A stretch of DNA of 64,000 bases. Origin: a virus. Made by a program: the position numbers and the translations under genes. Below the pieces are notes generated by a model. It was not told the DNA's origin and ran no database searches. It worked only from the letters and a program-made list of their open reading frames with translations. Of the stretch, positions 9,023-42,843 are shown piece after piece; positions within the stretch are counted from its first letter, which is position 1; the number at the start of each line of letters is the position of its first letter. Location of the stretch: IMG/VR virus record IMGVR_UViG_3300040801_002731, positions 1-64,000 of that record, one strand, 5' to 3'.

Positions 9023-9595
9023 TTATGCAGCTTCGGCAGTCACGTCGGACGCGCCGGGCAATCTGAACCAGCCCCAGCGCACACCTTTGATGAACGCTTC
9101 CATCATCACACTGACGTCATAGGAGGCGGCGTGGGCGGCGGCCGGGTCGTAATCGACACCAACGGCCCAGCACAGCTTCTCCAGGCTCGGCACGGCGCCG
9201 GTCGGGGTGGCCCAGCGGCCTTCCAGCATGGTGTCGAACCAGGGGAAGACGGGCGGAAAGCCGACCCGCTTGAACTCGCCGTTCACGAACGGCTTGTCGA
9301 AGCCTTCTGCGTTGTGCGCGACGATCAGCCCGGCCTTGCGAAACACGGCGTGCAGCTTTGGTGCCACGTCGTCCCACAGAGGCTTGCCGATCAGGTCGGC
9401 CGAGGTGATGCCGTGAACAGCCTGCGAGGCGGCCGTGATGGACCGTTGCGGGTCGATCCGCTGCACGAAGTTCAGCTTCCGCTCGCCATCCAGGGTCCAG
9501 AGCTGGGCGCAGACCTCGATGATCCGCTGATCGCCGGGGGTGCCATCCTTGTCGAGCAGCCCGGTCGTTTCGCAGTCAAAGCCACAGATCAGCAT
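9023..9595 (-). CDS. DnaQ-like 3'-5' exonuclease (DEDDh)
   Basis: 190 residues from the ATG at 9595, which has GAGGACTGCCC before it. F-D-C-E-T-T-G (residues 5-11) is Exo I, the H-N-A-E-G-F-D-K-P-F region is Exo II and H-A-A-S-Y-D near residue 155 is Exo III with the DEDDh histidine. Members excise 3' nucleotides, as the epsilon proofreading subunit or as RNase T. The DnaE-like polymerase at 32860 seems to have lost its PHP metal site, so this protein may supply proofreading in trans; that is inference. Confidence 0.88.
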   Translation of the reverse strand: MLICGFDCETTGLLDKDGTPGDQRIIEVCAQLWTLDGERKLNFVQRIDPQRSITAASQAVHGITSADLIGKPLWDDVAPKLHAVFRKAGLIVAHNAEGFDKPFVNGEFKRVGFPPVFPWFDTMLEGRWATPTGAVPSLEKLCWAVGVDYDPAAAHAASYDVSVMMEAFIKGVRWGWFRLPGASDVTAEAA

Positions 9596-9831
9596 GGGCA
9601 GTCCTCCAGCGCTTCGTGGATCTCTCTGTCGATCTCGGTCATTTCCATCGTGATCAACTCGACCCGGCAGTTCATCGGCGCCCATCGGCCTTTATTGCGA
9701 TGACAGGTGATCGCGCTCTTGGCGTGGGTCTTCTTCGTGTAGACCTTCGCGGACGCGAGCGGCCCCCACCCGGATCGGCGCGCCCAGAACTCGCCGGTTT
9801 CCGCATTCTGAATGATGTAGCCGAGTATCAT
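9589..9831 (-). CDS. unknown protein, 80 aa
   Basis: ATG at 9831 behind GGGGAAGAC; overlaps the start of the exonuclease gene by 7 nt, so translation is coupled. Basic middle part (K-K-T-H-A-K-S-A-I-T), acidic C-terminus ending D-C-P-C. Not recognised. Confidence 0.75.
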   Translation of the reverse strand: MILGYIIQNAETGEFWARRSGWGPLASAKVYTKKTHAKSAITCHRNKGRWAPMNCRVELITMEMTEIDREIHEALEDCPC

Positions 9832-12746: not shown

Positions 12747-13352
12747 TCAGTGAACCCGAAGCTGCCGACGGATTTCGGCCATCTCCTTCAGCCGCGCCTG
12801 GATCACCTCCTCAATGGCGCCGATCCGCTGCTCCAAATCGTGAGTGCGCAGCAGCGTCAGCGACACGTCGGGCACCTGTGCTGCCAACCCCGTCACCAGA
12901 GCGTGAATGTGCCACTGGTAGCCCTTGTTCATCGGAGGCTTGCCCGGCTCGATGGCGTAGAAGGGCAGGGGAGGAACGACGATCAGGTGGGAGAAATGCT
13001 CTCGCGTGAGCCGAAAGCAGCGCGCCAACAGTGCCTCGATCCGCTCTGAATGATCCTCGCTGTGCATCCCCATTTCGCCCAGCAGGTAGGCTGCAATGTC
13101 GATAGGTGTCCGATCCGTGATGAACGGGCGTGGCGTGTTGGCAAGCACCCGCTGCTCGTAGAGGCTCAGATACATCTCCTGGACCAGAATGCGCTGCGCC
13201 GGGGACATGGGCGCGACCGGATCAACGCCGCTCGCCAACAGCGCCTCGCGCACGGAGCTGTTGACATAGGGCACACCGATCCCCTCGGCGACCAGCTTGG
13301 CGAGCGTGGTCTTCCCGGAGCGATGCGCGCCGCACAGACCGAACGACATCAT
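12747..13352 (-). CDS. P-loop ATPase/kinase-like protein (AAA_28 type)
   Basis: 201 residues. G-A-H-R-S-G-K-T-T (residues 8-16) is a Walker A loop; F-I-T-D-R-T-P-I-D follows where nucleotide kinases bind substrate, as in NadR-type AAA_28 proteins. It overlaps the dUTPase stop by 4 nt. A deoxynucleotide or nucleoside kinase role fits the cluster but is inferred; the lid region is not typical of dTMP kinase. Confidence 0.7.
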   Translation of the reverse strand: MMSFGLCGAHRSGKTTLAKLVAEGIGVPYVNSSVREALLASGVDPVAPMSPAQRILVQEMYLSLYEQRVLANTPRPFITDRTPIDIAAYLLGEMGMHSEDHSERIEALLARCFRLTREHFSHLIVVPPLPFYAIEPGKPPMNKGYQWHIHALVTGLAAQVPDVSLTLLRTHDLEQRIGAIEEVIQARLKEMAEIRRQLRVH

Positions 13353-13798
13353 GCCACTCCCGTCGAGCCGAAGCCGCCGGCGCCGCGATCGCTCTCGTCC
13401 AGATTCTCGACCACGGTCACGACCGGCCGGCTGATCTTCTCGATGATGAGCTGGGCGATCCGATCGCCGTGCTTGACCATCACCGGGTTCTCGATGTCGG
13501 TGTTCAGCAGGATCACGCCGATTTCTCCGCGATAGTCCTCGTCGATGACGCCCGCGAGAACGTCCACGCCCTGCTTAAGCGCCAGACCCGAGCGCGGCGC
13601 GATCCGACCGTAGTGACCGGGCGGGATGGCGACAGCGATGCCGGTCTTGATGAGGGCGCGTTCGCCCGGCTCGATACGCGCTGCCACGGCCGGGCCGTCG
13701 AAACAGGCCCGCAGGTCCATGCCGGCTGCGTGCGCAGAGCCATAGGAGGGCGCTTCGGCGTTGTCGCTCAAGAGCTTGATCTTCAGGGTGTCAGTCAT
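13349..13798 (-). CDS. dut: dUTP diphosphatase
   Basis: 149 residues from the ATG at 13798 (AGGA 6 nt upstream). Motifs in order: A-G-M-D-L-R-A, P-R-S-G-L-A, G-V-I-D-E-D-Y-R-G-E-I with the catalytic Asp and the uracil hairpin, R-I-A-Q-L-I, and R-G-A-G-G-F-G-S-T-G, the mobile C-terminal loop. It is a full-length trimeric Dut, converting dUTP to dUMP; this limits uracil in DNA and feeds ThyX at 14012. Confidence 0.96.
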   Translation of the reverse strand: MTDTLKIKLLSDNAEAPSYGSAHAAGMDLRACFDGPAVAARIEPGERALIKTGIAVAIPPGHYGRIAPRSGLALKQGVDVLAGVIDEDYRGEIGVILLNTDIENPVMVKHGDRIAQLIIEKISRPVVTVVENLDESDRGAGGFGSTGVA

Positions 13799-13806
13799 GG
13801 TCATTC

Positions 13807-14010
13807 CTACCAGATGCGCTTGTTTTTGTGGTGATTTGCCAGTGCAAACAGTCCCATACAAAAAAGAATAGGACCGCAGACACTTCCAAAGAAAATGATC
13901 GGCGCAAGATCGCCGACAGTGACCCGCCCGTCCAAATACCTGGAGCACAGGAAGCCGCCAAAGATACCGATCAGAACCCAGACGATTACGACGATTGCCT
14001 CTTCCGACAT
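13807..14010 (-). CDS. small membrane protein, 67 aa
   Basis: Two hydrophobic spans (about residues 4-22 and 35-58: I-I-F-F-G-S-V-C-G-P-I-L-F) with a basic C-terminus N-H-H-K-N-K-R. It lies between thyX and dut. Function unknown. Confidence 0.75.
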   Translation of the reverse strand: MSEEAIVVIVWVLIGIFGGFLCSRYLDGRVTVGDLAPIIFFGSVCGPILFCMGLFALANHHKNKRIW

Positions 14011-14011
14011 A

Positions 14012-14959
14012 TTACACCTTCACATACTCGTTCTTGACGCTCTCGAAGCCGTCTTCGTCGATGAAGATGGTCGTGTCGGCGAAGCTGATCGGCGCAACCA
14101 CCTTCAGCTCGCGGGCCAGGGCCACAGCCAGGCGCCGGATCTCCAGATCGGCGTGGATGTTGCCGCGCTGCTCGATGATGTTGCGCGCCGCCCGCAGGTT
14201 CATGGTCCAGACCAGACGGGTCTCGGTCGCGTTGGGCAGCATGGCCCGCGCCGCCTCGTTGGCCCGCTTCTTCGCCATCGTCGCGCTGCTCTGGGCACCC
14301 TGGCTCCAGCCCTTCATGCGCCCCTGCCACTTGTTGTAGACCTCGATCTGCCGGACAAAATCGTCACGGAACTCAGTGATCAGGTCGTGGGCGAGCAGCT
14401 TCTCGAAGTTGGTGCAGCTTTCCTGGCCCTTCGCAAAGGACAGCAGCAGGGGCGGCACGACAGCGCGGGTGGCCCGGTAGCCGACGATCTCGATCTCGCC
14501 GCCCTCGGCCGTCACATACCGCTGGCTCTCCTGAGAGGGGTTGGTGCCGACGTGATGACGGATCAACTCGTGGGTCAGGGCGCGGGAAACCCCGGTGATG
14601 ATGAAGCTGACGTTGGTGTGCGCCAGGACGGAGCCGTGCCGCTCACGGATCACATTGGCGATGTAGTCCTCGGTCGAGCGGCCCTTGCCCCAGGCCCGGT
14701 AGCAGAACCGGCCGGCGAACTCGCCCAGAAGATCGGCATCCTGGTAGTAATTGGCCGGATCGTCATCGCACAGATCGGGATCGTAGGTCTCCGGCTTCAC
14801 CATACCCTCGACCTGACCGACGAAGCGCCCGATCGGCGTGTTCTCGTCCGCAGCCAGATCCAGCAGACCATGATCCTCGATGAACGCCATGAGCGTCGGG
14901 TAGTCAATCACAGGCGCTGCGATCGGCTTCGCCCAGGGCTCAAAAACAAGATCAACCAT
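14012..14959 (-). CDS. thyX: flavin-dependent thymidylate synthase
   Basis: 315 residues. The ThyX signature appears as R-H-H-V-G-T-N-P-S-Q-E-S-Q-R-Y near residue 155, in place of the commoner R-H-R-x7-S; the FAD/dUMP-binding Ser and Arg are kept. ThyX methylates dUMP with methylene-tetrahydrofolate and NADPH. An N-terminal extension of about 80 residues precedes the core. It stands in an operon with dut (dUMP source) and a DNA methylase. Confidence 0.92.
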   Translation of the reverse strand: MVDLVFEPWAKPIAAPVIDYPTLMAFIEDHGLLDLAADENTPIGRFVGQVEGMVKPETYDPDLCDDDPANYYQDADLLGEFAGRFCYRAWGKGRSTEDYIANVIRERHGSVLAHTNVSFIITGVSRALTHELIRHHVGTNPSQESQRYVTAEGGEIEIVGYRATRAVVPPLLLSFAKGQESCTNFEKLLAHDLITEFRDDFVRQIEVYNKWQGRMKGWSQGAQSSATMAKKRANEAARAMLPNATETRLVWTMNLRAARNIIEQRGNIHADLEIRRLAVALARELKVVAPISFADTTIFIDEDGFESVKNEYVKV

Positions 14960-15587: not shown

Positions 15588-18281
15588 TTAGCGTTGAAGC
15601 AGCGCCGCCAGATCATCGTAGCCGCCGATCAGCTCCTCGCGACCGTTCCGCAGTGCGTAAATCTTCGGGAACGTCCACTCAGACCGATCAAAGCCACGAT
15701 GCGTCAGGAAGCTCCGCTTCTGATGATCCGACAGCAGCTCGGCCTTGCGGTAAGGCGCGCCGATGTCATTCAGCAGAGCCGCTGCCTTGTTGCACCAGCC
15801 GCAGTTCGGGATGCTGTAGACCACAAACTCGGGCTCGGCCTTCGCGGAGACCACCTCCGGCTCGTCCGACTTGAAATCGACCGGGCAGGCCCCGCCGGCA
15901 CAATCCACATGCTCGAAGCCCACGTCTTCCTGAACGGTCGCGTTCTGGATGGCTTCCGCGATCATCTCAAACTGGGCCTTGGTGACAGGCTCCTCCGGCT
16001 GATACTCGAACGCCGTGGTGTCGATCTGCGGCATCACCGAGCAGCAGCGGACCTTGAACTGACCGTCGATCATACCGTTCACGAACATCGGGAACGACGT
16101 CACGGCCGGGTCATACTTCGCCGTGTAGGAGACCTGGTTGCCGGTCTCGGGCAGCAGCGAAAGGTCTTCGTTGACGCCACGGATCCAGAAGGTCTCCAGC
16201 AGGCGCAGATAGCGATACTGCTCGTCCATGGTTGCTTCGCCGGCCGTGACCAGCTTGTCGCCCATGCCCAAGGTGCAGATCACCGGCTGCGTCGGGAAGC
16301 CGACGACGGTCGTGCCGGAGTAGGTGGTCAGCTTCTTCGTCGGATAGCCCTCGGCCCGGTAACGCTCCACCAGGGGATCGTCATTGCGGAACTGGACCCA
16401 GCGGAGATACTCACGCATCGCCGGCAGGTGGGCGCCTTCGGTGAGCCCCATCAGCTTGCTGGTGGTGCCAGCAGGCTTGATCGTCCGATTGGTGTGAGGA
16501 GCGGTCAAACCCAGCTTCGCGCTGTAGCGCTCGGCCTCATCGGACACCGCTCGGGCGAAACGTGCCAGCGTCATCCACATGGGCATAGCGTCCGGGTGCG
16601 GGCGCACCATCGTCTGTCCGTTGGCGTCCATCATCGTCGCGCCGGACGGGTCCTCTGCGATGATGTCCCGGAAGCCCAGGCCGAAGCGCGCGAAGATCCA
16701 CTCGTGCAGACCGGTGATGCCCACGCCGATGCGGTTGGTCCGCTTCACCTCGCGCTCGTAGAGGCAGCGCATGGTGTTGGTGCGGATCAGAGCGCGCGTG
16801 GCCGCGCGGAAGGCGTCTTCGGCATCGTTGTCGCTCTGCGCGTGGAACGGCACCACGTCCGCGATCACGCAGTAGCCGCCAAGAAGTAGCAGACTCACTT
16901 CACCGCAGGGGTTGGTTACATGCTTGTAGGTCATCGCCGCAACGCGCTGCGCAAGCGCGCGGGCCAACGGGCGAGTTGCCTCCTCAAGCCCATCTTCGCC
17001 GCCGAACTTCACAAATGAGCCGTCCAGGTAGTCGGCCAAACCATCCGTCTTTTCGGTCAGGCGATCGACCATGATCAGGCCAGGCTCGCCGGTGCGGTCG
17101 TAATAGCTTGCCCAGGCGACGGCCGCGAACACGCGCCACGCATGAATGTCCAGGTCGGTCAGGCCATCAGCGGCCAGGCCCGCCACGAACCAATCTTCGA
17201 TGTCATCGAAGAAGATCGGCGTTGAGCCGTGAAAGCGCACGTCCAGGGCCTGCTCGAACAAGCCGGCCTCAACCAGCATGTCCCGGATCCGCGTCACCCC
17301 GTTGCGAAACTCGGCGTCCACGGTCACGCTGTTGTTGGCGCTCCACAGGAAGCCGCCGCGCTTGACCGCGATGAAGTCGAAGATGGTCTCGTCGCGCCAG
17401 GTCTTGGTCGCCATGCGAGCAGCACGACGGGCACCGCCCACAAGGACGCACTCGGCCAGATAGTGGTCGGCATACATGGCGGCGCGCCAGGGCTCCATGC
17501 CGGCATCGCGCAGTCGCGCCAGGTTTTCGACCGCCTTCATCATCGGACCAGGCCCGCTCGCCGGGCGGTTCTGCATCCCCTTGATTGGCGCGCCGTAGGG
17601 GCGCACGTCGGAGAAGTCGACCAGCAGCACATGATCTCGCTTGCGCTCGAACGCCATGCGCTCCAGCACCTCAATGGCCCGAGCCCATCCTTCTCGGCTG
17701 TCACCAACGAGGTGATGCACGATTTCCGAGCCGGCATACAGGTGCTCGGCGTCACGGCGGGTCAGGTAGCCGGAGATGCGCCCGGCCTGAACGTCGGCAT
17801 GTCCATGCTCGATGATCGGCACCACGATGGGCATGTTGTTCAGATCAGCGATCTCCACCAGGGCGTCGTCATAGGCAGTTCCGACGCCGCTCCCGTTCAG
17901 CAACAGGCGGTAGGTGAGGCAGCGCATGGCGGAGGTGGAACAGTTGGTGAACACCTCCTGCGGACGACCAGGCTGCGTTTCGTCCCCGTGTTGCAGGTGC
18001 CGGCCGCTCATCAGCAGCGATGCCTGACGCAGATGGTGACGCATGGACAGGCGCTCGGCGTCCTCGGTCGAGCGCACGGACGGATCGGTGTGATCGCGCA
18101 GCAGCGCGGCGTTGCCCAGGGCAACACGTTCGGCAACTTCGGCCCAGGTTTCGTGGCGTTCCCGACCGGTCCAGTCCTTGATCTTGCGGTTGACGGTGCG
18201 ATCAGCGACGGCCTGGCCCATGCCGGGGAAATAGGAGCGGGCAGGGGTGTCCGTCACCGATGGGGCGGTGCTGGGAGGCAT
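15588..18281 (-). CDS. nrdJ: B12-dependent (class II) ribonucleotide reductase fused to glutaredoxin
   Basis: 897 residues. The ATG at 18281 has GGAG 6 nt upstream; two upstream starts have none. F-T-N-C-S-T-S-A-M-R-C holds the first redox Cys, N-P-C-G-E is the radical-site loop with its Cys, and T-I-K-P-A-G-T-T-S-K-L is the phosphate-binding motif; the layout fits the monomeric adenosylcobalamin type. From about residue 815 a glutaredoxin follows with C-G-W-C and F-P-K-I. It makes dNTPs, and the attached glutaredoxin probably re-reduces the active-site cysteines. No small (NrdB) subunit is seen here. Confidence 0.9.
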   Translation of the reverse strand: MPPSTAPSVTDTPARSYFPGMGQAVADRTVNRKIKDWTGRERHETWAEVAERVALGNAALLRDHTDPSVRSTEDAERLSMRHHLRQASLLMSGRHLQHGDETQPGRPQEVFTNCSTSAMRCLTYRLLLNGSGVGTAYDDALVEIADLNNMPIVVPIIEHGHADVQAGRISGYLTRRDAEHLYAGSEIVHHLVGDSREGWARAIEVLERMAFERKRDHVLLVDFSDVRPYGAPIKGMQNRPASGPGPMMKAVENLARLRDAGMEPWRAAMYADHYLAECVLVGGARRAARMATKTWRDETIFDFIAVKRGGFLWSANNSVTVDAEFRNGVTRIRDMLVEAGLFEQALDVRFHGSTPIFFDDIEDWFVAGLAADGLTDLDIHAWRVFAAVAWASYYDRTGEPGLIMVDRLTEKTDGLADYLDGSFVKFGGEDGLEEATRPLARALAQRVAAMTYKHVTNPCGEVSLLLLGGYCVIADVVPFHAQSDNDAEDAFRAATRALIRTNTMRCLYEREVKRTNRIGVGITGLHEWIFARFGLGFRDIIAEDPSGATMMDANGQTMVRPHPDAMPMWMTLARFARAVSDEAERYSAKLGLTAPHTNRTIKPAGTTSKLMGLTEGAHLPAMREYLRWVQFRNDDPLVERYRAEGYPTKKLTTYSGTTVVGFPTQPVICTLGMGDKLVTAGEATMDEQYRYLRLLETFWIRGVNEDLSLLPETGNQVSYTAKYDPAVTSFPMFVNGMIDGQFKVRCCSVMPQIDTTAFEYQPEEPVTKAQFEMIAEAIQNATVQEDVGFEHVDCAGGACPVDFKSDEPEVVSAKAEPEFVVYSIPNCGWCNKAAALLNDIGAPYRKAELLSDHQKRSFLTHRGFDRSEWTFPKIYALRNGREELIGGYDDLAALLQR

Positions 18282-18325
18282 CGGATGCTCCATGTTTGGA
18301 AAGGACGAAGACGACCAGGATAGAT

Positions 18326-18341
18326 CAATCAATTTTGACTT
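18326..18341. promoter_or_regulatory. dyad operator 6
   Basis: CAATCAA-TT-TTGACTT, 45 bp before the reductase start and 50 bp after its -10 box: inside the leader. Confidence 0.75.
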
Positions 18342-31172: not shown

Positions 31173-32063
31173 TCAGATGTTGTCGAGATCGCCGAGGATG
31201 TCCTCGATGTTCTCCGGGAGATCATCGGCAGGGGAGAGTGCCTTGCCGGTGGTCTTCGGTGCCGCCGCGGCCGGCTTGGTTGCGGGCGCAGTCTCGAAGG
31301 GCGGGGTGTCTTCGACCACCTCTGCATCGACAATGCTGCCGCCGCTCGGACCCGTCAGCATGGCCTTCGTGGCGTAGCCGACGGTCGGCGTGACGCCAGA
31401 AACCGTGGCAATAGCGTTCAGAGCCTTCGTGTCCTTGCCGGAGAAGAACTCCTTCTCGACGAACTCGGCGAGGTTAATCGCCTTGTCCATGACGCCGGCC
31501 GGAACCGGAGCCGACTTCGGCGCCGGCATGACGCCATACTTCGTATCGAGCCCCTTGCCGGTGCGCTCGATGATGAAATCCATGCCGTTTTCGAGGTCCA
31601 GAATGTCGCCGACCTCATCGGCATATTCCTCGACCATCGAGCAGATGGCAGTGAAGGTGGTGGAGGTCAGCGACAGCACCACCGGATCTTCGCTCGCATC
31701 GGGGCCGGTGCGAATGATCGCGTTGACCAGAACTTCCTTGCGCGCGCTCCACTCCTTGTAGAGCTTCACTTGGTCGTCGTCCGAGGTGGCCTTGAGCGCC
31801 TTGTCGATCGCGGTGCAGATCGGGCACGGCCGATCGTAGGTGTGGTCCTGACAGCCAGCGACGGCCATCGGCTTGCCGTTCGGCTCAGGCTTGATCCAGT
31901 GCAGACCCAGATCCTGCCAAAAGATGCCGTCGGGGCCGAGGCCCGGCAAGATACGAACCTTGGTCTTGCCTTCCTTCACCTTCTTGATCGGCGTGATGCC
32001 GCCGCGGGAGTGCTTGGCCTTCGCTCCCTTCAGAGCAGCCATCAGTGCCGGATTCAGAGCCAT
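31173..32063 (-). CDS. single-stranded DNA-binding protein (gp32-like)
   Basis: 296 residues from the ATG at 32063. K-V-R-I-L-P-G is the first OB-fold strand; C-Q-D-H-x4-R-P-C-P-I-C is the zinc-binding insertion of gp32-type proteins; the C-terminus is acidic with D-L-P-E-N-I-E-D-I-L-G-D-L-D. It covers single strands at the fork. The strong promoter region before it and the hairpin behind it fit high expression. Confidence 0.86.
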   Translation of the reverse strand: MALNPALMAALKGAKAKHSRGGITPIKKVKEGKTKVRILPGLGPDGIFWQDLGLHWIKPEPNGKPMAVAGCQDHTYDRPCPICTAIDKALKATSDDDQVKLYKEWSARKEVLVNAIIRTGPDASEDPVVLSLTSTTFTAICSMVEEYADEVGDILDLENGMDFIIERTGKGLDTKYGVMPAPKSAPVPAGVMDKAINLAEFVEKEFFSGKDTKALNAIATVSGVTPTVGYATKAMLTGPSGGSIVDAEVVEDTPPFETAPATKPAAAAPKTTGKALSPADDLPENIEDILGDLDNI

Positions 32064-32229
32064 GATTTTCGTCCTTTCGTCTTTGGCGTCTCGGGCCGAA
32101 GCCCACCTGCCTTGCTGTTTTCCGCGTTCGCTAAAGCGCGACAAAGCGTTTCAGCGAACACAAGAACATTATAGCGTTGTCGCTAAGGGGCTACATCGTT
32201 TTTTCGCGTCACAGCGAAACTTACCAGTG
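32064..32229 (-). promoter_or_regulatory. ssb promoter region
   Basis: Repeated TTCGCT/AGCGAA words (about 32128-32212) and AACGCTATAATG on the minus strand near 32165-32180; GTTCGCT and AGCGAAC face each other around 32127-32157. No open reading frame. Strongest -10 match in the window (TATAAT). Confidence 0.6.
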
Positions 32230-32859: not shown

Positions 32860-35800
32860 TCATTCGAGCATTTCCGAGACCTGGCTGAAGACCGCGTTAA
32901 GGATCTCCTGCTTCGAGGGATCAAACCACACCTGGCCGGGATTGAACCCGACCACCAGGTTGGTATCCGTCTCCCGGTCGTAGACGACCTTGCCGGCGTG
33001 GTCGACGACCGCGCCCTTCAGATCCTTGATGAAGTGCCGGGCGACGGTGTTGCCCAGCAGCAGGATCAAGGTCGGCTTGAGAACGGCGATCTCGCGCGCC
33101 AGATAGGGCCAAAAGGCGTTGATCTCCTCGGCCGTGATCTCGCGTCCGGCCTTCGGCGCCTTCAGCAGCCCGGTCCAATAAGCATCAGCCCGAGCAAGCC
33201 CGGCCTCTGCCAGAGCCTCGCTGACGGCCGAGAAGCTCTCCGACTGGCTGAACTGCCCGACACGCTCCTCGCCGTTGGTGGGTGCGTCCGTGATCACCAT
33301 GAAGCGTGCGTTCTTGCCCAGGCACGGCTTGACCAGTCCGGTGCATTCCGCCTGATACTCGGTCACGATCTCGGCGAGCTTGTGCCGGGTAGCGCCATCC
33401 ACCACCATCCAACGCTTGATCGGCACCACGGCGTTGACCAGGCCCGGCAGCAGCTCCTTCTGCCGCATGATCCGGTCAGGGTGTCGCGCAGGCAGAGCGC
33501 CCGGCCTGATCGAGGCGAGTGCGCCCACCTCATCGAGCAAACCCCGGTGTCGGACGTTGCAGCGCCGACGCTCGACCCGCTTCTCCAGGTCTTCGGGCGA
33601 CGTGAAGGGGCCGTCGCGGCGCGCCTCCAGGATCGCCGTCGTAGTGTTCTCGCTGATGCCCTTGATCCGGTTGAAGGGGATCAGAAGCGTGGTGTCGTTC
33701 AGGATCTCGAACTGGCCGGTGGAGTGATTGATGTCAGGCGGCAGAACCTCGATGTCCATGCGCTCGGCGTCGGCCAGCAGGCCCGGCAACTTCTCCTCCT
33801 TCATGAGCGAGAGACACGCGGCGACGTATTCGATGGGGTAGTAGACCTTGAGCCACATCGCCTGATAGGAGATCAGGGTGTATTCGACGGAGTGAGACCT
33901 GTTGAAGCCGTAGCCGGCGAAGGCCGCGATCTTGTCGAACAATGCCTCCGCGTGCGCAGCGTCCAGGGTCTCCGCTTTCACACACCCCTCGACAAACTTG
34001 TCTTTATACTCCGCCATCAACTTTGGGTCCTTCTTCCCCATAGCCTTGCGGAGTTTGTCTGCCTCGGCCATCGAGAAGCCGGCCAAATCACGCGAAATCT
34101 GCATGACCTGCTCCTGATAGACCATAACCCCGTAGGTCGTATCCAGGCTGTCACGCATCTTCGGGTGCTCGTAGAATACCTCCTCTGTGCCGGCCTTGCG
34201 GTTGACGTAGCTGTCCATCATGCCGGAGTCCATCGGACCCGGACGATAGAGCGCGGTCGCGGCCACGCAATCCTCGAACGTGATGCCTTCCGCGCCCAGG
34301 CTCTTGAGCAGCTTGCGCATCCCGCCGCTCTCGAACTGGAAGATGCCGACTGTCCGACCCTCCGCGAACGCCTGAAGCACCCGTTCATCGTCGAGCGGGA
34401 TCGCCATCAGATTGACGCGCTTGCCGTGCCGGCGCCGGATGTAGTCCAGGGCGAGGTCGATGACGTCGAGGGTTTCGAGGCCCAGAATATCCATCTTGAC
34501 CAGACCCTGGTCTTCGACGATCCGCTTGTCCCAGTTGACTGTCGCCTCGCCTGACCGACGCTCAATCACAGCCCGCTCGACCAGATCGCAGCCGCCCACG
34601 ACCACGCCGGCGGCGTGCCGCCCGAGCGACCGCATCACGCCCTCAAGGCTGGTTGCGATATCCCAGATCGGCCGGTTGGCGTCCCGGAAACGGGCTATCT
34701 CTGCGACGGCTTCGGCCGCCTGCTCCAGCCCGACCGGCTGCCCGTGCTCCTTCGGCACCAGCTTCGAGCAGGCATATTCACGCTCGGGCAGACCGCAGAT
34801 GCGACCCACGTCACGCAGCGCGGACGCGCCCTTGAACTGACCGTAGTTGCTGATGCCGGCGACCCGCGCCGATCCATACTTCTCGACCAGATACTCGATC
34901 ACTTCGCCGCGACGGGCGCTCATGAAATCCAGGTCGGCGTCAGGCAGGTCGTTACGCTCCGGGTTGATGAAGCGCTCGAACAGCAGGTTGAAGCGGATCG
35001 GGTCGCAATCGGTGATGCCCATCAGGTAAGCGATCAGCGAGCCGCCTACGGAGCCACGACCAGGCCCTACGCGAATGCCCTGACTCTTGGCCCAGCGGAC
35101 CAGATCCTGCACGACCAGGAAGTAGCCGCAGAAGCCGAGATCACGCAGCACCCGGAACTCATAGGCCAGACGGGGCTTGTAGACGCTCTCCAGGGCCGCC
35201 GCGTCGGGCCGGTGCCCAAACACCTGACGACCGAAGCGCTCGCTCCAGCCCGTCTTGCACGCAGCGAGAACAGCCGCCGGCTCGTCCTCGACCAGCTTGG
35301 GCAGACTGACCGGCGCCTTGGCCCAACGATAGATCGCCCGCTCGACCAGCTTGCCGGTGTTCTCCAACGCCTCCCGCCAAATGCCGCCTGTCTCGAACTC
35401 CCGCTGCTCCCGCAGTCTGAGCGCCGTCGCCTTGCACTCCGTCGCCAGCTCGGCCGGTGTGAGGGCGTGCAGGCCACGTTCGACGTTGCTCCAATGCCAG
35501 ATTTCCGAGATCGGCGTGTTGCGCAGAATGCCCTGATGGATCTCCTGCACGTCGGCACCGTCCTTCGCGTAGCAGATCGGTCGCCCGACGATCATCGGCA
35601 GGGACAATTCGCGCGCGAGTGTGATGGCGCGCATGTTGAGGGCGTCGTAATAGGGCGTGTTGATCGGCGTGAGCTGAAGGAACACGTTTTCAGCGCTCAG
35701 AGCATCGCTGGTGTCGCGCAGTATCTCAGCAGCGCTTGCGTGCCCCACGACGCTGTAGACGTCGCTTGTGACGATAGCGACGTCATCCGCTGTCACGCTC

Positions 35801-36201
35801 GCAAGCGCTTTGCGCAGATCGTCGAACCCCAGCTTTGGCACCTGATAGAAGCGCTCCTCGCTGTTGGCGAGCGTGAGCAGCCGGAACAGAGCCTTCAGAC
35901 CGGCTTCGGACAGCACATACCAAGTGACCCAGAACTCGGGCGGCGTCTTCTTCTTCTCGCCGCGCTCCTTGCGCCAGGTCACATCGTCCACGAGACGAAG
36001 GCGACAGCCGATGACCGGCGCGATGCCGGCCTTGTTGCAGCGATTGGTCAGGTCGATCATGGCGCTGACCGACATGGTATCGGTCAGGCCAAGCGCCGTA
36101 GCGCCGACGCGCTGCGCCTCCTCGATCAACTTTTCGACCGTCAGCGTGGACTCGCCCAGCGAGAAGTGCGACCGGGCGGTCAGCATCGTGTGAATGGTCA
36201 T
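32860..36201 (-). CDS. dnaE: DnaE-type DNA polymerase III alpha with C-terminal uracil-glycosylase-like domain
   Basis: 1113 residues from the ATG at 36201. PHP domain 1-240, polymerase palm with L-P-D-A-D-L-D-F (catalytic Asp pair), fingers with G-P-G-R-G-S and Y-Q-E-Q, and a helix-hairpin-helix region near 860. The first PHP metal motif, usually H-x-H, reads T-A-R, so PHP metal binding is probably lost. From about 920, where DnaE normally has its OB and tau-binding parts, lies a domain like UDG family 4/5: F-M-V-I-T-D-A-P, W-T-G-L-L-K, E-I-N-A-F-W-P-Y-L, L-K-P-T-L-I-L-L-L-G-N. Leading replicase of the phage; the fused domain may sense uracil. Confidence 0.93.
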   Translation of the reverse strand: MTIHTMLTARSHFSLGESTLTVEKLIEEAQRVGATALGLTDTMSVSAMIDLTNRCNKAGIAPVIGCRLRLVDDVTWRKERGEKKKTPPEFWVTWYVLSEAGLKALFRLLTLANSEERFYQVPKLGFDDLRKALASVTADDVAIVTSDVYSVVGHASAAEILRDTSDALSAENVFLQLTPINTPYYDALNMRAITLARELSLPMIVGRPICYAKDGADVQEIHQGILRNTPISEIWHWSNVERGLHALTPAELATECKATALRLREQREFETGGIWREALENTGKLVERAIYRWAKAPVSLPKLVEDEPAAVLAACKTGWSERFGRQVFGHRPDAAALESVYKPRLAYEFRVLRDLGFCGYFLVVQDLVRWAKSQGIRVGPGRGSVGGSLIAYLMGITDCDPIRFNLLFERFINPERNDLPDADLDFMSARRGEVIEYLVEKYGSARVAGISNYGQFKGASALRDVGRICGLPEREYACSKLVPKEHGQPVGLEQAAEAVAEIARFRDANRPIWDIATSLEGVMRSLGRHAAGVVVGGCDLVERAVIERRSGEATVNWDKRIVEDQGLVKMDILGLETLDVIDLALDYIRRRHGKRVNLMAIPLDDERVLQAFAEGRTVGIFQFESGGMRKLLKSLGAEGITFEDCVAATALYRPGPMDSGMMDSYVNRKAGTEEVFYEHPKMRDSLDTTYGVMVYQEQVMQISRDLAGFSMAEADKLRKAMGKKDPKLMAEYKDKFVEGCVKAETLDAAHAEALFDKIAAFAGYGFNRSHSVEYTLISYQAMWLKVYYPIEYVAACLSLMKEEKLPGLLADAERMDIEVLPPDINHSTGQFEILNDTTLLIPFNRIKGISENTTTAILEARRDGPFTSPEDLEKRVERRRCNVRHRGLLDEVGALASIRPGALPARHPDRIMRQKELLPGLVNAVVPIKRWMVVDGATRHKLAEIVTEYQAECTGLVKPCLGKNARFMVITDAPTNGEERVGQFSQSESFSAVSEALAEAGLARADAYWTGLLKAPKAGREITAEEINAFWPYLAREIAVLKPTLILLLGNTVARHFIKDLKGAVVDHAGKVVYDRETDTNLVVGFNPGQVWFDPSKQEILNAVFSQVSEMLE

Positions 36202-36749: not shown

Positions 36750-37392
36750 ACCCCTTTGCGCAAAGAGCGGCGAGTTTCTGCAACTCTCCGTAAACCTTAG
36801 CTCGCTGTGTTCGGGAGAGACCCAACAAATCGGAAATCAGCGACATCGAAACCCGGTTCGTCACCGGCCCGGCATACCGCCCCTGTTTGCGGCAGAACTC
36901 CGCCCGCGCCTTGAGAGCGTCGATCTCCTTGCAGAGTGCCGGCGGCGGGTTGTCCAGCAGTTCCAGATACCGACGCGCCAGGGGCGACAGCCGCTTCAAC
37001 ACGCGCTCCCGCCGCTCCTTTTCGAGCAGAACATCGTCAGCCGGGATGACGGTTTCGTCGGCGATGACCTCGTGCAGACCGGCATCATCTTCGTCTTCGG
37101 ACGTGCAATCGTCCAGGCTGAGCCCCACCAGCCGAAGGTCCTTCTCTGTCTGCTTCTTGAACCACCGATTGATGTGATTCAGGGCGCCCCGGTAGAAGTA
37201 AGGAGCGAAGGGCACCCCATGCGTCGGATCGTAGCTTTCGCGGGCGGTCGCCCAGGCGACCCACAGCTCCTGTTCGACCTCCTCCCGTTCGACCAACCGT
37301 GCGCCGGCCGCCTTCATGCGCCGACAGACCTTGAAGGTCAGAATGCCGACCAGGCGCTTACTGGCCTCAATGGACAAGGGATCCTGGTTCAT
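36748..37392 (-). CDS. sigma-70-family RNA polymerase sigma factor
   Basis: 214 residues. Region 2 is visible at about 33-85: E-E-V-E-Q-E-L-W-V-A-W, S-Y-D-P-T-H-G-V-P-F-A-P-Y-F-Y-R-G-A-L-N-H-I (core binding and -10 recognition). Region 4-like end: L-S-P-L-A-R-R-Y-L-E-L-L and I-S-D-L-L-G-L-S-R-T-Q-R-A-K-V (HTH). It probably redirects host RNA polymerase to phage promoters such as the CGCTATA class. Overlaps the CobS-like gene by 1 nt. Confidence 0.82.
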   Translation of the reverse strand: MNQDPLSIEASKRLVGILTFKVCRRMKAAGARLVEREEVEQELWVAWATARESYDPTHGVPFAPYFYRGALNHINRWFKKQTEKDLRLVGLSLDDCTSEDEDDAGLHEVIADETVIPADDVLLEKERRERVLKRLSPLARRYLELLDNPPPALCKEIDALKARAEFCRKQGRYAGPVTNRVSMSLISDLLGLSRTQRAKVYGELQKLAALCAKG

Positions 37393-38555
37393 CAGCCGAA
37401 GACCCTCTGCGCGAACTGCTCCACGGTCTCCTTATCGACGCGCGGCAGCCGGTTGGTGAAAGCGAGTTTCAGACCGGTGCGCCAGTCGGAGCCCTTCACC
37501 AAGCCGACCTTGGCGGCTGCGATCAGCTCACGAGGGCTGATCGTGGCGCTGATGCGGGATGCCTTGAACGCCTCGCGCACTTCGTTGGCGAAATCGACCA
37601 CTCGTTCGGCATCGCTGATGGCGGCGCCGGACTGCTGTGCCACCACGGCGGCCTCAATCTTTGGCGCCATGTAGCCAACCTCCTCAGTCACGGCGAAACG
37701 GCTGTAGTTGGCGGCGTTGCCGAGCTGAGTGCCCTGGTAGAGCCCCGTCTCGTCGCCAGAGCCGTTGGTGTTGCCGGTCGCTACGAAGCGGAAGTTCGGG
37801 TGCGGCACAATGTGGCGCCACTCGGGCGGCGCCTCCTTGATGTAGAGGGGTTCGCCCTCAAGAACCGGCTGGTAGACCGCCAGAACCGCCGGCATGGCGA
37901 AATCATACTCATCGGCGCAGTAGACCCAGCCGTGCTTCATGGCGAGAGCAAGCGGCCCAGGCTCGAAGTAGGTCGAACCGTCGCGGGCCAACATCTGACC
38001 GACGATATGCGCCTCTTCGGTGTTGATGGTGTGCTGGACGCGCACCCACGGCCGGCGCGTCACGGCGCAGACATTGCGCAGGCTGGAGGTCTTGCCGGTG
38101 CCGTGATAGCCCCAGAGATAGAGCGCCATGCTCAACTCCAGGGTCATCAGAATGGTCTTGGTCAGATCGAGGTGAAAAACATAGTTCCGATCGAGAGTCG
38201 GGATCATGTCGTCAAAATCGGTTGACCCTTTGACCGTAACCATGATCGGCTCGCCACGCGCGTTCATCGCCGCCTTGACGGCACCGAACCCGAACAACTC
38301 GTGCATCGGCTGTTTGATGTCGCGACCGACAGATGTCATCGAGACCACGCTGCCGCCCTCATCCGTCTCGACACGCTTGGTCGCTGTGGCAGCGCGGGCC
38401 TTGAGAGCGGCGAGCGCCTTTTCGGACAGCACGGGAGCGTCCGGGTAGGTTTCGCGGTAGCGATCGAGGGTCCACTCCGGGTGCGACTCCTTCAGGTGAA
38501 GCTGAATGGCATGGGTGGCTTCACCGCAAATCTGGCAGGTGATTTTGTCGGCCAT
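37392..38555 (-). CDS. CobS/MoxR-like AAA+ ATPase
   Basis: 387 residues from the ATG at 38555, after GAGG. N-terminal zinc-finger-like part C-Q-I-C-G-x8-H-L-K-E-S-H (residues 6-24), then G-Y-H-G-T-G-K-T-S (Walker A), C-A-D-E-Y-D-F (Walker B) and V-A-T-G-N-T-N-G (sensor 1). Such ATPases pair with a VWA protein (next gene); in CobNST the pair drives cobalt insertion, in MoxR systems it remodels proteins. No CobN is present here. Confidence 0.88.
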   Translation of the reverse strand: MADKITCQICGEATHAIQLHLKESHPEWTLDRYRETYPDAPVLSEKALAALKARAATATKRVETDEGGSVVSMTSVGRDIKQPMHELFGFGAVKAAMNARGEPIMVTVKGSTDFDDMIPTLDRNYVFHLDLTKTILMTLELSMALYLWGYHGTGKTSSLRNVCAVTRRPWVRVQHTINTEEAHIVGQMLARDGSTYFEPGPLALAMKHGWVYCADEYDFAMPAVLAVYQPVLEGEPLYIKEAPPEWRHIVPHPNFRFVATGNTNGSGDETGLYQGTQLGNAANYSRFAVTEEVGYMAPKIEAAVVAQQSGAAISDAERVVDFANEVREAFKASRISATISPRELIAAAKVGLVKGSDWRTGLKLAFTNRLPRVDKETVEQFAQRVFG

Positions 38556-38610
38556 TTTCCTCACTTCTCCGTGTGTTTTCGCGCTTTGTGAAGCGCTTTT
38601 GACGCTCAGT

Positions 38611-38652
38611 TTATATGACGCGCGCGCGAGGCCGACAAGTCAATTTTGATTG
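38611..38652 (-). promoter_or_regulatory. dyad operator 13 with CATATAAAC promoter
   Basis: AAGTCAA-TT-TTGATTG (38637-38652) upstream of GCGCGCGTCATATAAAC on the minus strand, in front of the CobS-like gene; it supplies a TTGACT -35-like box. Confidence 0.72.
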
Positions 38653-38684
38653 AACCTTTCAGAACCCGCGCGCGCGTCAAGACT

Positions 38685-40841
38685 CTACTTCAGGATGCGC
38701 TTAATCTCGGACATCACCTGGCCGGGCAGGGCGTCGAGCGTGTTCAGGACGACGTGGCGCGGGTAATAATGACGCACCGAGCTGTCCTTGATGCCGATGC
38801 CGATCGTCTCGACGCCCGCGCGATCCAAAGCAGCGACGGTATTGCGCAGATGCCTGACCTGGGCGCCGTGATCGCCGGCGGCGCAGGGCTGACCGTCTGA
38901 CAGGACGATCATCACCCGCCGCGCACCCTTCTCTCGTAGCAGACGGATGCCGGCGATCTGCACAGACTCGCCATCGACATTGTTGGCAAGGCGTAGCTCG
39001 TGGGGCGCTGCGGCAAACCGGCGCTTGACCTCGGCCGTAAGACGCTCCGCGTAACCCTTGAAGATCGGCATGTAGAGCGGCTCGACGCGGGAGAACGACA
39101 CGCCGGTCTTGCGTTCCTCGTCCCGCATCAGCCGCGCGCTCGTCCCGCTCATGCTGCGGAAGCCGAAGTTGTCGGTCGTGAAACCGATGCACTCATGGCG
39201 GATGCCGACACGCTCAAGGGTCTGCGAGAGCGCGTAGGCCGCCGACATGGCAGTGTGGATCTTGATGCCGCCCATCGAGCCAGAACAGTCGACCACGAGC
39301 GACACGACGGTATCCAGAGAGCGATTGTCCTGAATGCGCCGGAAGACGCGGGTGTCGCCGGCCGCGAGACGGTGCAGACTGGCGGAATGCAGCCGACCGG
39401 ACCGGAAGCCCGGCACCTTCACGACCTGGCTGCGAGCAGCCATCATGCGCTCGATGTCCTTCTGCATGACGCCGACCATCTGCCGGGTATGGTCGTCGAG
39501 CGTCTGCATCCAAGCATCATCGAACGAGCCCTTTGACACGCTGAAGGTCTCGATGCGATCCCAATCGTTCGTGTAGATCACATAATCGGATTCATGAGCA
39601 GCCTCCGTTGCCGAAACGCTGATCTCGCGGGCCGTCGCTTCATCGAAGTCGGATGCCTTCAGGGCTTCGGCGTCAATAGGCTCAAGCCAGTCGATCTCCA
39701 CCTCGCCGCTGGTGGCGCCATCATTTTCGGCCTCGTCGCAAGATTCGCTTCCGCCCGAGAGCTTGCCTGAGAACTCACCTTCACCAGAGAGCCCACCTTC
39801 GTTCTCGTCGGAGGATTCGTCCTCACCTTCATCGGAAGATTCATCTTCGTCGGAGGATTCGTCCTCACCTTCACCCGAAGATCCATCTTCGTCGGAGGAT
39901 TCATCCTCACCTTCATCGGAGGGTTCCTCACCCGAGGTTTCGTCTTCATCGGAGGGAGCGGCCTCAGATTCGCTCTCAGAAGGCTCCGGGGCGTCGCCCT
40001 TGCCGGCGCTCTCCTCCGGGGCACCCTCGTCATCCTCGGGCTTTCTCGGGCTTTCTGAGGGCGCTCCAGACGCACCTTCCTTTTCGTCCTTGCCGTCACA
40101 CGGCTCGCCCTCGCCCTCAGCGGGCTTCTCGGGCTTCGATGAGCCCCCTTCCGACTTCTCGGGCTTCGATGTCTCTGCGCCGGTCGGTGATTTCGGCTCG
40201 ATCTTCCGCAACGCCTTGTCGATCTTGATCGCCAGATCGAGCGCGGCCTGGCTGGAGTCCACACGCGGGAACTCCTTCGACAGATCACCGATCTTGTCCG
40301 TGAACGGCTTCATACGCGCCCACAGGTCGTTCTCGCGCATGAACGCGGCGAACACCTTCTGCCCGGCCCAGGCGCGTGCCATCGGCACCATGAGCACGGC
40401 GAACTCATTGTTCGGATCGCCTGCGACTTTCTCCAGAGCCGGCTTGGTTATGTGCTCGATGAAGAAGTGATGGAGCTTTTCGAGGTTGTAGGCAGAACCG
40501 GGGAACTTACCCAGCACGGCCCGTTCGATGAACGTGTCCTCGACGACGTTGTGAAGCATATCGACGGCCTTGCCGAGCTTCGAGGCAGCCTTCACCACCT
40601 TCCAATCCGTGAAAAGGATGTGCGCGATCTCGTGGTCGATGAACCCCTGGATGCCGAGAATCAACTCCGGCGTAGCGTTGTCCGGCAGGTGGGGAATGTT
40701 GACCCTTTTCGGCTTGAGGGTGCGCGAGTCCGTCTCGACGTAGGCCGACACGCCGCGTTGTGTGACAGTGATGCCCATGCCGGCGAGCATCTGCGTGACT
40801 TTGGTGCAGACCTCTCTTAGCACAATGATGTCTTGGTTCAT
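38685..40841 (-). CDS. CobT-like VWA-domain protein
   Basis: 718 residues. N-terminal domain (1-220) with F-I-D-H-E-I-A-H-I-L-F, a metallopeptidase-like H-E-x-x-H arrangement typical of CobT; middle (about 225-370) an extremely acidic Glu/Ser/Asp repeat with repeated S-S-D-E; C-terminal VWA domain with V-V-D-C-S-G-S-M-G-G (MIDAS, D-x-S-x-S) and V-L-S-D-G-Q-P. Partner of the AAA+ at 37392. Whether it serves cobalamin or protein remodelling is open. Confidence 0.88.
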   Translation of the reverse strand: MNQDIIVLREVCTKVTQMLAGMGITVTQRGVSAYVETDSRTLKPKRVNIPHLPDNATPELILGIQGFIDHEIAHILFTDWKVVKAASKLGKAVDMLHNVVEDTFIERAVLGKFPGSAYNLEKLHHFFIEHITKPALEKVAGDPNNEFAVLMVPMARAWAGQKVFAAFMRENDLWARMKPFTDKIGDLSKEFPRVDSSQAALDLAIKIDKALRKIEPKSPTGAETSKPEKSEGGSSKPEKPAEGEGEPCDGKDEKEGASGAPSESPRKPEDDEGAPEESAGKGDAPEPSESESEAAPSDEDETSGEEPSDEGEDESSDEDGSSGEGEDESSDEDESSDEGEDESSDENEGGLSGEGEFSGKLSGGSESCDEAENDGATSGEVEIDWLEPIDAEALKASDFDEATAREISVSATEAAHESDYVIYTNDWDRIETFSVSKGSFDDAWMQTLDDHTRQMVGVMQKDIERMMAARSQVVKVPGFRSGRLHSASLHRLAAGDTRVFRRIQDNRSLDTVVSLVVDCSGSMGGIKIHTAMSAAYALSQTLERVGIRHECIGFTTDNFGFRSMSGTSARLMRDEERKTGVSFSRVEPLYMPIFKGYAERLTAEVKRRFAAAPHELRLANNVDGESVQIAGIRLLREKGARRVMIVLSDGQPCAAGDHGAQVRHLRNTVAALDRAGVETIGIGIKDSSVRHYYPRHVVLNTLDALPGQVMSEIKRILK

Positions 40842-41895: not shown

Positions 41896-42843
41896 TCAGT
41901 GGGATAGGTAAATTTTCGAGTCCGTCGGGGCCAAGCTGGGTTGCAGCACAACGCCTCGTTCGTGGACCCTTACATTGGCCGCCGGGTAAACCGCCAGGGC
42001 ATGTCCGAGATTGCGTGCAAACTCAGGCTTGAAGTGCTTCAGTTGGCGCAGACCGCCACCGAATTGCCCGAACAAAGCAGGCCAGCCGAGATCAAGCGGC
42101 TTGTCGAGGATATGAAGGCGCCAGGCGAGCCAACAGTAGATATCCAGGGCCATCGGCTTGCTCGCCAGCTCGCGCACGCCGGCCTCCAGCAGCGGCACCG
42201 GATGCTGGACAAGGCTGGCATAGAACATTTCGTTCAGAACCACTTCCTCGTTCCAGAGCGCGAGCTGGCGCGCGTCGGTCGAGGTCATCAGGATCTCGTC
42301 ATCGACGAAGCTGCCGTTGTGCCGATGCTGAGTCTTCACGCCGTCCTTCTCGTGCGCAAGGAAGAAGGTCAGCTTGCAGGCCGAGATACGCCGGGCCTGC
42401 CGTCGGACTTCGCCATAAGCCGACCCGCCGGTGGGCACGCCCATGTTTTGAAGCCACTGCGCCATTGAGCCGCCCAGCTCCACGCGCCGGCTGCCCGTCT
42501 GTTTCGCTCTCGTCTGGAGATAGATCAGGATCATACGGGCCTTCGAGCCCGCCGGCAGACCGACCGGGGTCTCACCGTCTTCCTCCATGCCGCTTTCGAT
42601 CAGCAGGGTGACGTTGGCACCGGTGCGGCGCCAGATGGTTTCCTTGGGCGTGCGGAGAGGAAGGGAGGTCTGAGAGAAGCCGGAATAGATCAGGTTCAGT
42701 CTGCGGTGATCGTCCTCAAGAACGCGCGCGGCCGAATCGACCAAGTGCCGCTGGTCGATGTCTACAAGCTCCTTCGCCTTCTCTCGGCCATGAGCGAGGA
42801 TGAGGCTGTGTAGATCACCCACCAGGAAACTCCGATCTCGCAA
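41896..42843 (-). CDS. repA: plasmid-type replication initiator RepA
   Basis: 315 residues from a TTG at 42843 with GAGGG just before; a GTG 7 codons in, after CGGAG, is an alternative. The segment R-L-N-L-I-Y-S-G-F-S-Q-T-S-L-P-L and the winged-helix-like continuation (W-L-Q-N-M-G-V-P-T-G-G, L-N-E-M-F-Y, A-L-D-I-Y-C-W-L-A-W-R) match RepA initiators of broad plasmid families (RepA_C). It should bind the iterons directly upstream and open the origin with host DnaA. Confidence 0.88.
   Translation of the reverse strand: MRDRSFLVGDLHSLILAHGREKAKELVDIDQRHLVDSAARVLEDDHRRLNLIYSGFSQTSLPLRTPKETIWRRTGANVTLLIESGMEEDGETPVGLPAGSKARMILIYLQTRAKQTGSRRVELGGSMAQWLQNMGVPTGGSAYGEVRRQARRISACKLTFFLAHEKDGVKTQHRHNGSFVDDEILMTSTDARQLALWNEEVVLNEMFYASLVQHPVPLLEAGVRELASKPMALDIYCWLAWRLHILDKPLDLGWPALFGQFGGGLRQLKHFKPEFARNLGHALAVYPAANVRVHERGVVLQPSLAPTDSKIYLSH

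Follow-up and report, generated by a model that had tools for sequence, protein, structure and literature searches.

Fusions of uracil-DNA glycosylase (UDG) domains to family A polymerases are already known in phages. In the UDG-DNA polymerase I fusions of the PaBG gp205 group (PMC7412058), SPO1 gp31 and phiLo (9qhs), a domain of the UDG family-4 type lies at the N-terminus of the polymerase and mostly keeps its catalytic residues. A UDG fold also serves the replicase of vaccinia virus without needing catalysis: D4 supports processive synthesis independently of its glycosylase activity (PMC4450493), a role that the phage domain described here may share, although D4 is a family-1 UNG with an intact active site and forms a subunit in its own right, bridged by A20. 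For the family C polymerase studied here, the GenBank note on RHEph10 gp048 already lists 'uracil-DNA glycosylase-like', naming the domain only and discussing neither the loss of its active site nor a function. In the open-access literature, we found no paper on a polymerase of the RHEph10 gp048 type and no description of a catalytically emptied UDG at the C-terminus of family C replicases across the phage-plasmid group.

The DNA analysed here (the window) is the 64,000-nucleotide stretch from position 1 of IMG/VR record IMGVR_UViG_3300040801_002731. The full record, from a virus of 106.5 kb, encodes a plasmid initiator of the RepA_C type (41896-42843, minus strand), and the element is thus a phage-plasmid. 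Related phages and circular plasmids, mostly of 103-122 kb, include Rhizobium RHEph10, Pseudomonas nickie, SSU5 and elements of Methylobacterium, Shinella, Stenotrophomonas, Cupriavidus, Aeromonas and Acinetobacter baumannii (AB_1 type); a typing of these phage-plasmids has been published (PMC12977533).

Domain architecture of the window polymerase

The gene at 32860..36201 (minus strand, as are all features of the window given below unless listed without a strand) encodes a DnaE-type DNA polymerase III alpha subunit with a C-terminal pseudo-UDG domain. Its reading frame of 1,113 amino acids begins at an ATG that is backed by homologues, and the protein matches phrog_405 over its full length (E 2e-299). 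Common to this protein and bacterial DnaE (E. coli, 2hnh; T. aquaticus, 2hpi) are the PHP, palm, fingers and HHH domains together with the catalytic aspartates. Pfam places the PHP domain at residues 10-162 (35716..36174), the polymerase catalytic region (DNA_pol3_alpha) at residues 315-574 (34480..35259) and the fingers domain at residues 577-743 (33973..34473), and recognisable bacterial DnaE sequence stops with the HHH domain (HHH_6) at residues 817-898 (33508..33753). The catalytic pair D421/D423 (PDADLDF; 34933..34941) and the third palm aspartate D571 (34489..34491) are invariant in 57 full-length homologues, which argues, as far as sequence can tell, for a working polymerase.

The metal site of the PHP domain is degenerate. 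At the H-x-H position the window protein reads T8-A9-R10 (36172..36180), as the original prediction had it; the histidines are absent in every informative relative, where the site is mostly A/G-A-R/K, and the next PHP motif, D-H, reads D-T. E. coli DnaE itself aligns here with R-V-H, so a degenerate PHP site beside a separate proofreader is ordinary, and the degradation is family-wide. The separate proofreader is probably the DnaQ-like 3'-5' exonuclease at 9023..9685, which had been proposed for this role; it carries the DEDDh residues and has homologues in 10/10 relatives.

While bacterial DnaE continues into an OB and tau-binding C-terminal domain, the window protein has a UDG-like domain instead. 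Past the HHH domain Pfam detected neither an OB nor a tau-binding domain, DnaE matches ended at about residue 898, and the UDG family-4-like domain covers about residues 950-1113 (the last ~165 residues; 32863..33354). Pfam UDG matched residues 963-1088 with an E value of 4.9e-11, or 1.9e-12 when the domain was searched alone. An AF2 model of residues 878-1113, built from 70 sequences, reached a pLDDT of 88 and a pTM of 0.77, and its top Foldseek matches were the family-4 UDGs 4zby, 4zbx and 1l9g (E about 1e-12, with 1.2e-12 for 4zby; TM 0.75-0.79 by target length). A sequence profile search led to the same family (4zbx, E 1.5e-19), and a full-length model (pLDDT 89.7) matched bacterial DnaE and, separately, UDG-4. 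These models, together with Pfam UDG matches in all 70 C-terminal members scanned, identify the predicted fold of the C-terminus as the alpha/beta fold of UDG family 4, in agreement with the original proposal that such a fold replaces the OB/tau region.

Family-4 UDGs (UDGa; Tth 1ui0, T. maritima 1vk2, S. tokodaii 4zby) are the best match of the phage domain in both structure and sequence and have in common with it the fold, the strand order and several glycine and proline positions. Unlike them, the phage domain has lost the residues of the uracil pocket and of catalysis as well as the Fe-S ligand set, and it is joined C-terminally to a replicase. On the NCBIfam UDG_fam4 model the window DnaE scored 62.4 bits (E 4.3e-17), under the cut-off of 125.3, and an active-type phage UDG fusion scored 185. 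Assignment to UdgX finds no support in this protein, which lies far under the cut-off of the NCBIfam UdgX model, contains no KRRIH anywhere and has TDAPT rather than GEQPG as its motif A.

Between the HHH and UDG domains, a QxELL segment (residues 914-918; 33448-33462, no strand listed) has its glutamine in 91/96 homologues. It resembles a clamp-binding motif, yet is located in a predicted helix; through it, the phage DnaE could use the clamp of its host.

Distribution of the fusion and its replication context

The UDG domain occupies the same position in 96/96 aligned relatives, and homologues align over the full length of the window DnaE at 37-59% identity. Ten related phages and plasmids were searched whole, and each had exactly one UDG match, within a dnaE frame of 1100+ amino acids, and no second UDG. 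The fusion read from the window is thereby borne out, and uninterrupted fusion proteins are present in phages or plasmids of alpha-, beta- and gammaproteobacteria. When viral contigs were scanned with a pattern from the linker, beyond the limits of the UDG domain, 146 loci were confirmed and 80 of them kept. All UDG domains linked to DnaE fall into a single clade (SH-aLRT 100), so a single fusion event suffices to account for them, separate from the polymerase I fusions. Compared with the SPO1/PaBG type, the window protein thus differs in its polymerase (family C), in the C-terminal position of its UDG and in its clade.

A gp32-like single-strand binding protein (31173..32144) is encoded in the same block as dnaE and was found in 10/10 relatives. 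In most relatives the neighbourhood of dnaE includes the gp32-like gene and a gene for a CobS/MoxR-like ATPase, beyond which lies a CobT-like gene. The window likewise has CobS-like AAA and CobT-like VWA genes near dnaE (37392-40841); these are labelled as cobalamin genes, and a MoxR/VWA pair is the more likely identity. Elsewhere in the window (15588-18332), a ribonucleotide reductase-like protein of 914 amino acids carries an insertion domain of the B12 type and, C-terminally, a glutaredoxin domain (residues 837-892).

The replicase had originally been expected to control uracil in DNA jointly with the dUTPase (13349-13948, no strand listed) and ThyX (14012-14959, no strand listed) of the window. 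A dUTPase was present in 5/10 of the relatives searched whole; conservation of the fusion hence does not extend to a uracil circuit, and this part of the expectation falls away. A beta clamp was found neither in the ten relatives searched whole nor in the window's own record, and a clamp-loader domain (DNA_pol3_delta2) was absent from the same ten relatives. Overall, the fusion goes with a replicase that is without a clamp, loader or tau tail of its own, and not with a uracil circuit.

Active-site residues and the metal site

The alignment compared 80 distinct domains linked to DnaE with 71 UDG-4 domains from phages, of which 35 are polymerase I fusions, 15 stand alone and 21 lie in other frames; positions follow the numbering of Tth UDGa, in which N80 is the asparagine of YITN and N89 that of the PPxNR segment (PMC5387724). 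Motif A of the window reads T-D-A-P-T, against GE(A/G)PG in family 4, with D972 (33286..33288) at the position of the motif A glutamate, E41; this residue is aspartate in 80/80 DnaE-linked UDGs, invariant despite the loss of the other catalytic residues. At the uracil-contact asparagine (N80), the window has G1011 (33169..33171) and the group has A, S, T, G or W; at the water-positioning asparagine (N89) the window has G1019 (33145..33147); neither position is asparagine in any of the 80. The catalytic histidine of motif B (H155) corresponds to N1087 (32941..32943) and is replaced by N, S or A throughout (His in 0/80). The stacking F54 is kept in 3/80, its position being mostly taken by small residues, and the Fe-S cysteine C84 in 0/80. 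The comparison phage UDGs keep N80 in 67/70, N89 in 67/70 and H155 in 69/70, three positions that lie outside the patterns by which this set was fetched, and E41 in 68/70, a count that is biased upward, as are those for the cysteines, since the patterns included motif A and the cysteine segments.

Published single mutations at these residues in Thermus UDGa bring losses that range from roughly 6-fold to 3-4 orders of magnitude. In H155S k2 falls by more than three orders of magnitude, in E41Q k2/Km drops about 900-fold, E41D substantially reduces activity, and N80A and N89A lose over 40-fold and 6 to 9-fold, respectively (PMC5387724). With H155, N80, N89 and C84 each at 0/80 and E41 changed to aspartate in 80/80, an active UDG was judged unlikely, and the losses combined make both uracil excision and specific uracil binding by the DnaE-linked domain very unlikely. 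The uracil recognition and glycosylase control that had been predicted for the domain would accordingly be gone from the window protein, which keeps neither the catalytic residues nor the Fe-S cysteines of UDG4.

The domain is nevertheless maintained. Its dN/dS was 0.01-0.30 across 17 close pairs, similar to that of the polymerase part, and such purifying selection means that it is not a relic. Small residues occupy the emptied active-site positions almost without exception, and 73/80 DnaE-linked UDGs retain E978 (E47 in Tth). Two lysines are specific to the group: K1017 (33151..33153), which is lysine in 79/80 DnaE-linked domains and proline in 66/71 phage UDG4s, and K1062, lysine in 73/80. 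Among polymerase I-linked UDGs, those of LysYB1 and P744 (L007:2935-3540 and L008:2923-3520) also have aspartate for the motif A glutamate and have lost the uracil asparagine, with the motif B histidine kept.

The four-cysteine 4Fe-4S set is absent from 80/80 DnaE-linked UDGs, and the group of the window keeps none of its cysteines. Fe-S cysteines persist in 28/80 domains, 27 of which have strictly three of the four. All 28 (L003, L017, L021 and 25 others) have a histidine about eight residues past the CxxC pair, which occurs in 1/52 DnaE-linked UDGs without the cysteines and in 0/71 other UDGs. On the polymerase tree this C-C-H-C set changes state at least three times on well-supported branches (five times by the most parsimonious count); the four residues are thus gained and lost as a unit. 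This pattern suggests that a C-C-H-C metal site may have taken over from the Fe-S cluster and subsequently disappeared, with one such loss in the lineage of the window.

Possible roles of the pseudo-glycosylase

In the mechanism that we propose, a family-4 UDG would have been added on a single occasion, in the ancestor of the phage-plasmid group, to the C-terminus of a DnaE-type replicase without an OB/tau-binding tail. The fused domain would then have lost uracil binding and catalysis and been retained as a non-enzymatic module, which could grip DNA behind or beside the polymerase, or dock a replication partner such as the gp32-like protein, and might so stabilise the replicase on DNA without a phage clamp. 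A DNA-binding module of this kind, for processivity or docking and standing in place of the OB/tau tail, is the best explanation of the domain and in our judgement a somewhat probable one; processivity is the function that we prefer, with moderate confidence. Support comes from the lack of a phage clamp and loader, from the group-specific K1017 and K1062 and from the vaccinia D4 precedent. The domain has probably lost all glycosylase activity, and probably binds DNA or a partner and aids processivity. Counting against a pure binding platform, the invariance of D972 and the retention of E978 indicate that part of the pocket is under constraint; the C-C-H-C set of 28 members, which suggests that the domain has also carried metal, and the possible use of a host clamp through the QxELL segment count against the explanation too.

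Such constraint on the pocket would fit a non-catalytic sensor, in which the remodelled, enlarged pocket would hold a flipped-out base that is modified or damaged, or else an abasic site, and pause the polymerase, much as archaeal B-family polymerases pause at uracil in the template. The pocket residues have turned small rather than being randomised (N80 to A/S/T/G, H155 to N/S/A and F54 mostly to small residues), D972 and E978 remain, and a related domain occurs in the polymerase A fusion of phiLo (9qhs, modified template). However, N80 and H155, through whose side chains the Thermus enzyme bonds uracil, are gone in every member, so uracil itself would go unread, and beyond ThyX and dUTPase no pathway for modified bases was recognised here. 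We regard a sensor as unlikely, if worth keeping in view.

Docking could also be the sole task, with the domain serving as an adaptor for the DnaQ-like exonuclease, the gp32-like protein or a helicase and making no contact with DNA. The tail of bacterial DnaE, which the domain replaces, is the site where tau docks, and DnaQ and gp32 homologues accompany the fusion in all ten relatives. The group-specific lysines, however, adjoin the old active-site strand, a placement that seems a better fit with DNA contact, and no partner was identified; an adaptor of this kind appears improbable. Considerably more doubtful is that the domain is still a DNA glycosylase that uses the motif A aspartate on a different substrate. 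That aspartate is invariant, and catalytic residues vary across the UDG superfamily, E. coli Mug having asparagine in motif A (PMC5387724). Against this, the corresponding E41D change is damaging in the Thermus enzyme, the motif B histidine, N89 and N80 have been lost together, and a glycosylase fused to a replicase would create abasic sites ahead of it.

Lastly, an annotation artefact or false fusion, to which the separate 'uracil-DNA glycosylase family protein' listed by PGAP on many Acinetobacter plasmids might point, is rejected as next to impossible, because those copies are dnaE genes in which a NUMOD4 endonuclease gene breaks up the polymerase part and not the UDG junction, a sister plasmid encodes an uninterrupted protein of 1,151 amino acids, and the Pfam matches (70/70) and single in-frame UDGs (10/10) given above are consistent throughout. 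Many plasmids of Acinetobacter baumannii and one Klebsiella phage have this interruption, by a NUMOD4-type endonuclease gene in the fingers/HHH region (L016:8408-8983, L023:5343-6051), and it is the 3' piece of dnaE that becomes annotated as a separate glycosylase. As for an intron, the interrupted genes of Acinetobacter and Klebsiella had no Rfam match. An extra segment, EDG..HR..C.DG..RTVEEA, is common to SSU5-type and interrupted Acinetobacter and Klebsiella DnaEs and adjoins the endonuclease insertion site; in the SSU5 gene (L005:7992-11507) it lies around residues 745-795 and resembles part of an intein. A split intein as the explanation of the interrupted genes is weakened by the presence of this segment within the uninterrupted SSU5 protein.

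Returning to the DNA-binding module, a stronger form of it would see in these elements a clamp-free group of DnaE polymerases that draw processivity from a built-in dead glycosylase, independently of poxvirus D4, with a C-C-H-C site rebuilt in part of the group; this we offer as a tentative possibility, with more doubt than belief. UDG folds are now seen joined to at least two unrelated replicase types in phages, besides the D4/A20 pair of poxviruses. In the phage-plasmids, including elements common in Acinetobacter baumannii and Klebsiella, the fold has been kept and its chemistry apparently lost. Database entries that these plasmids carry under the name 'uracil-DNA glycosylase family protein' should be read with caution, as replicase fragments without the known active-site residues. 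The finding also raises the question of whether a glycosylase fold can stand in for a sliding clamp or a tau tail.
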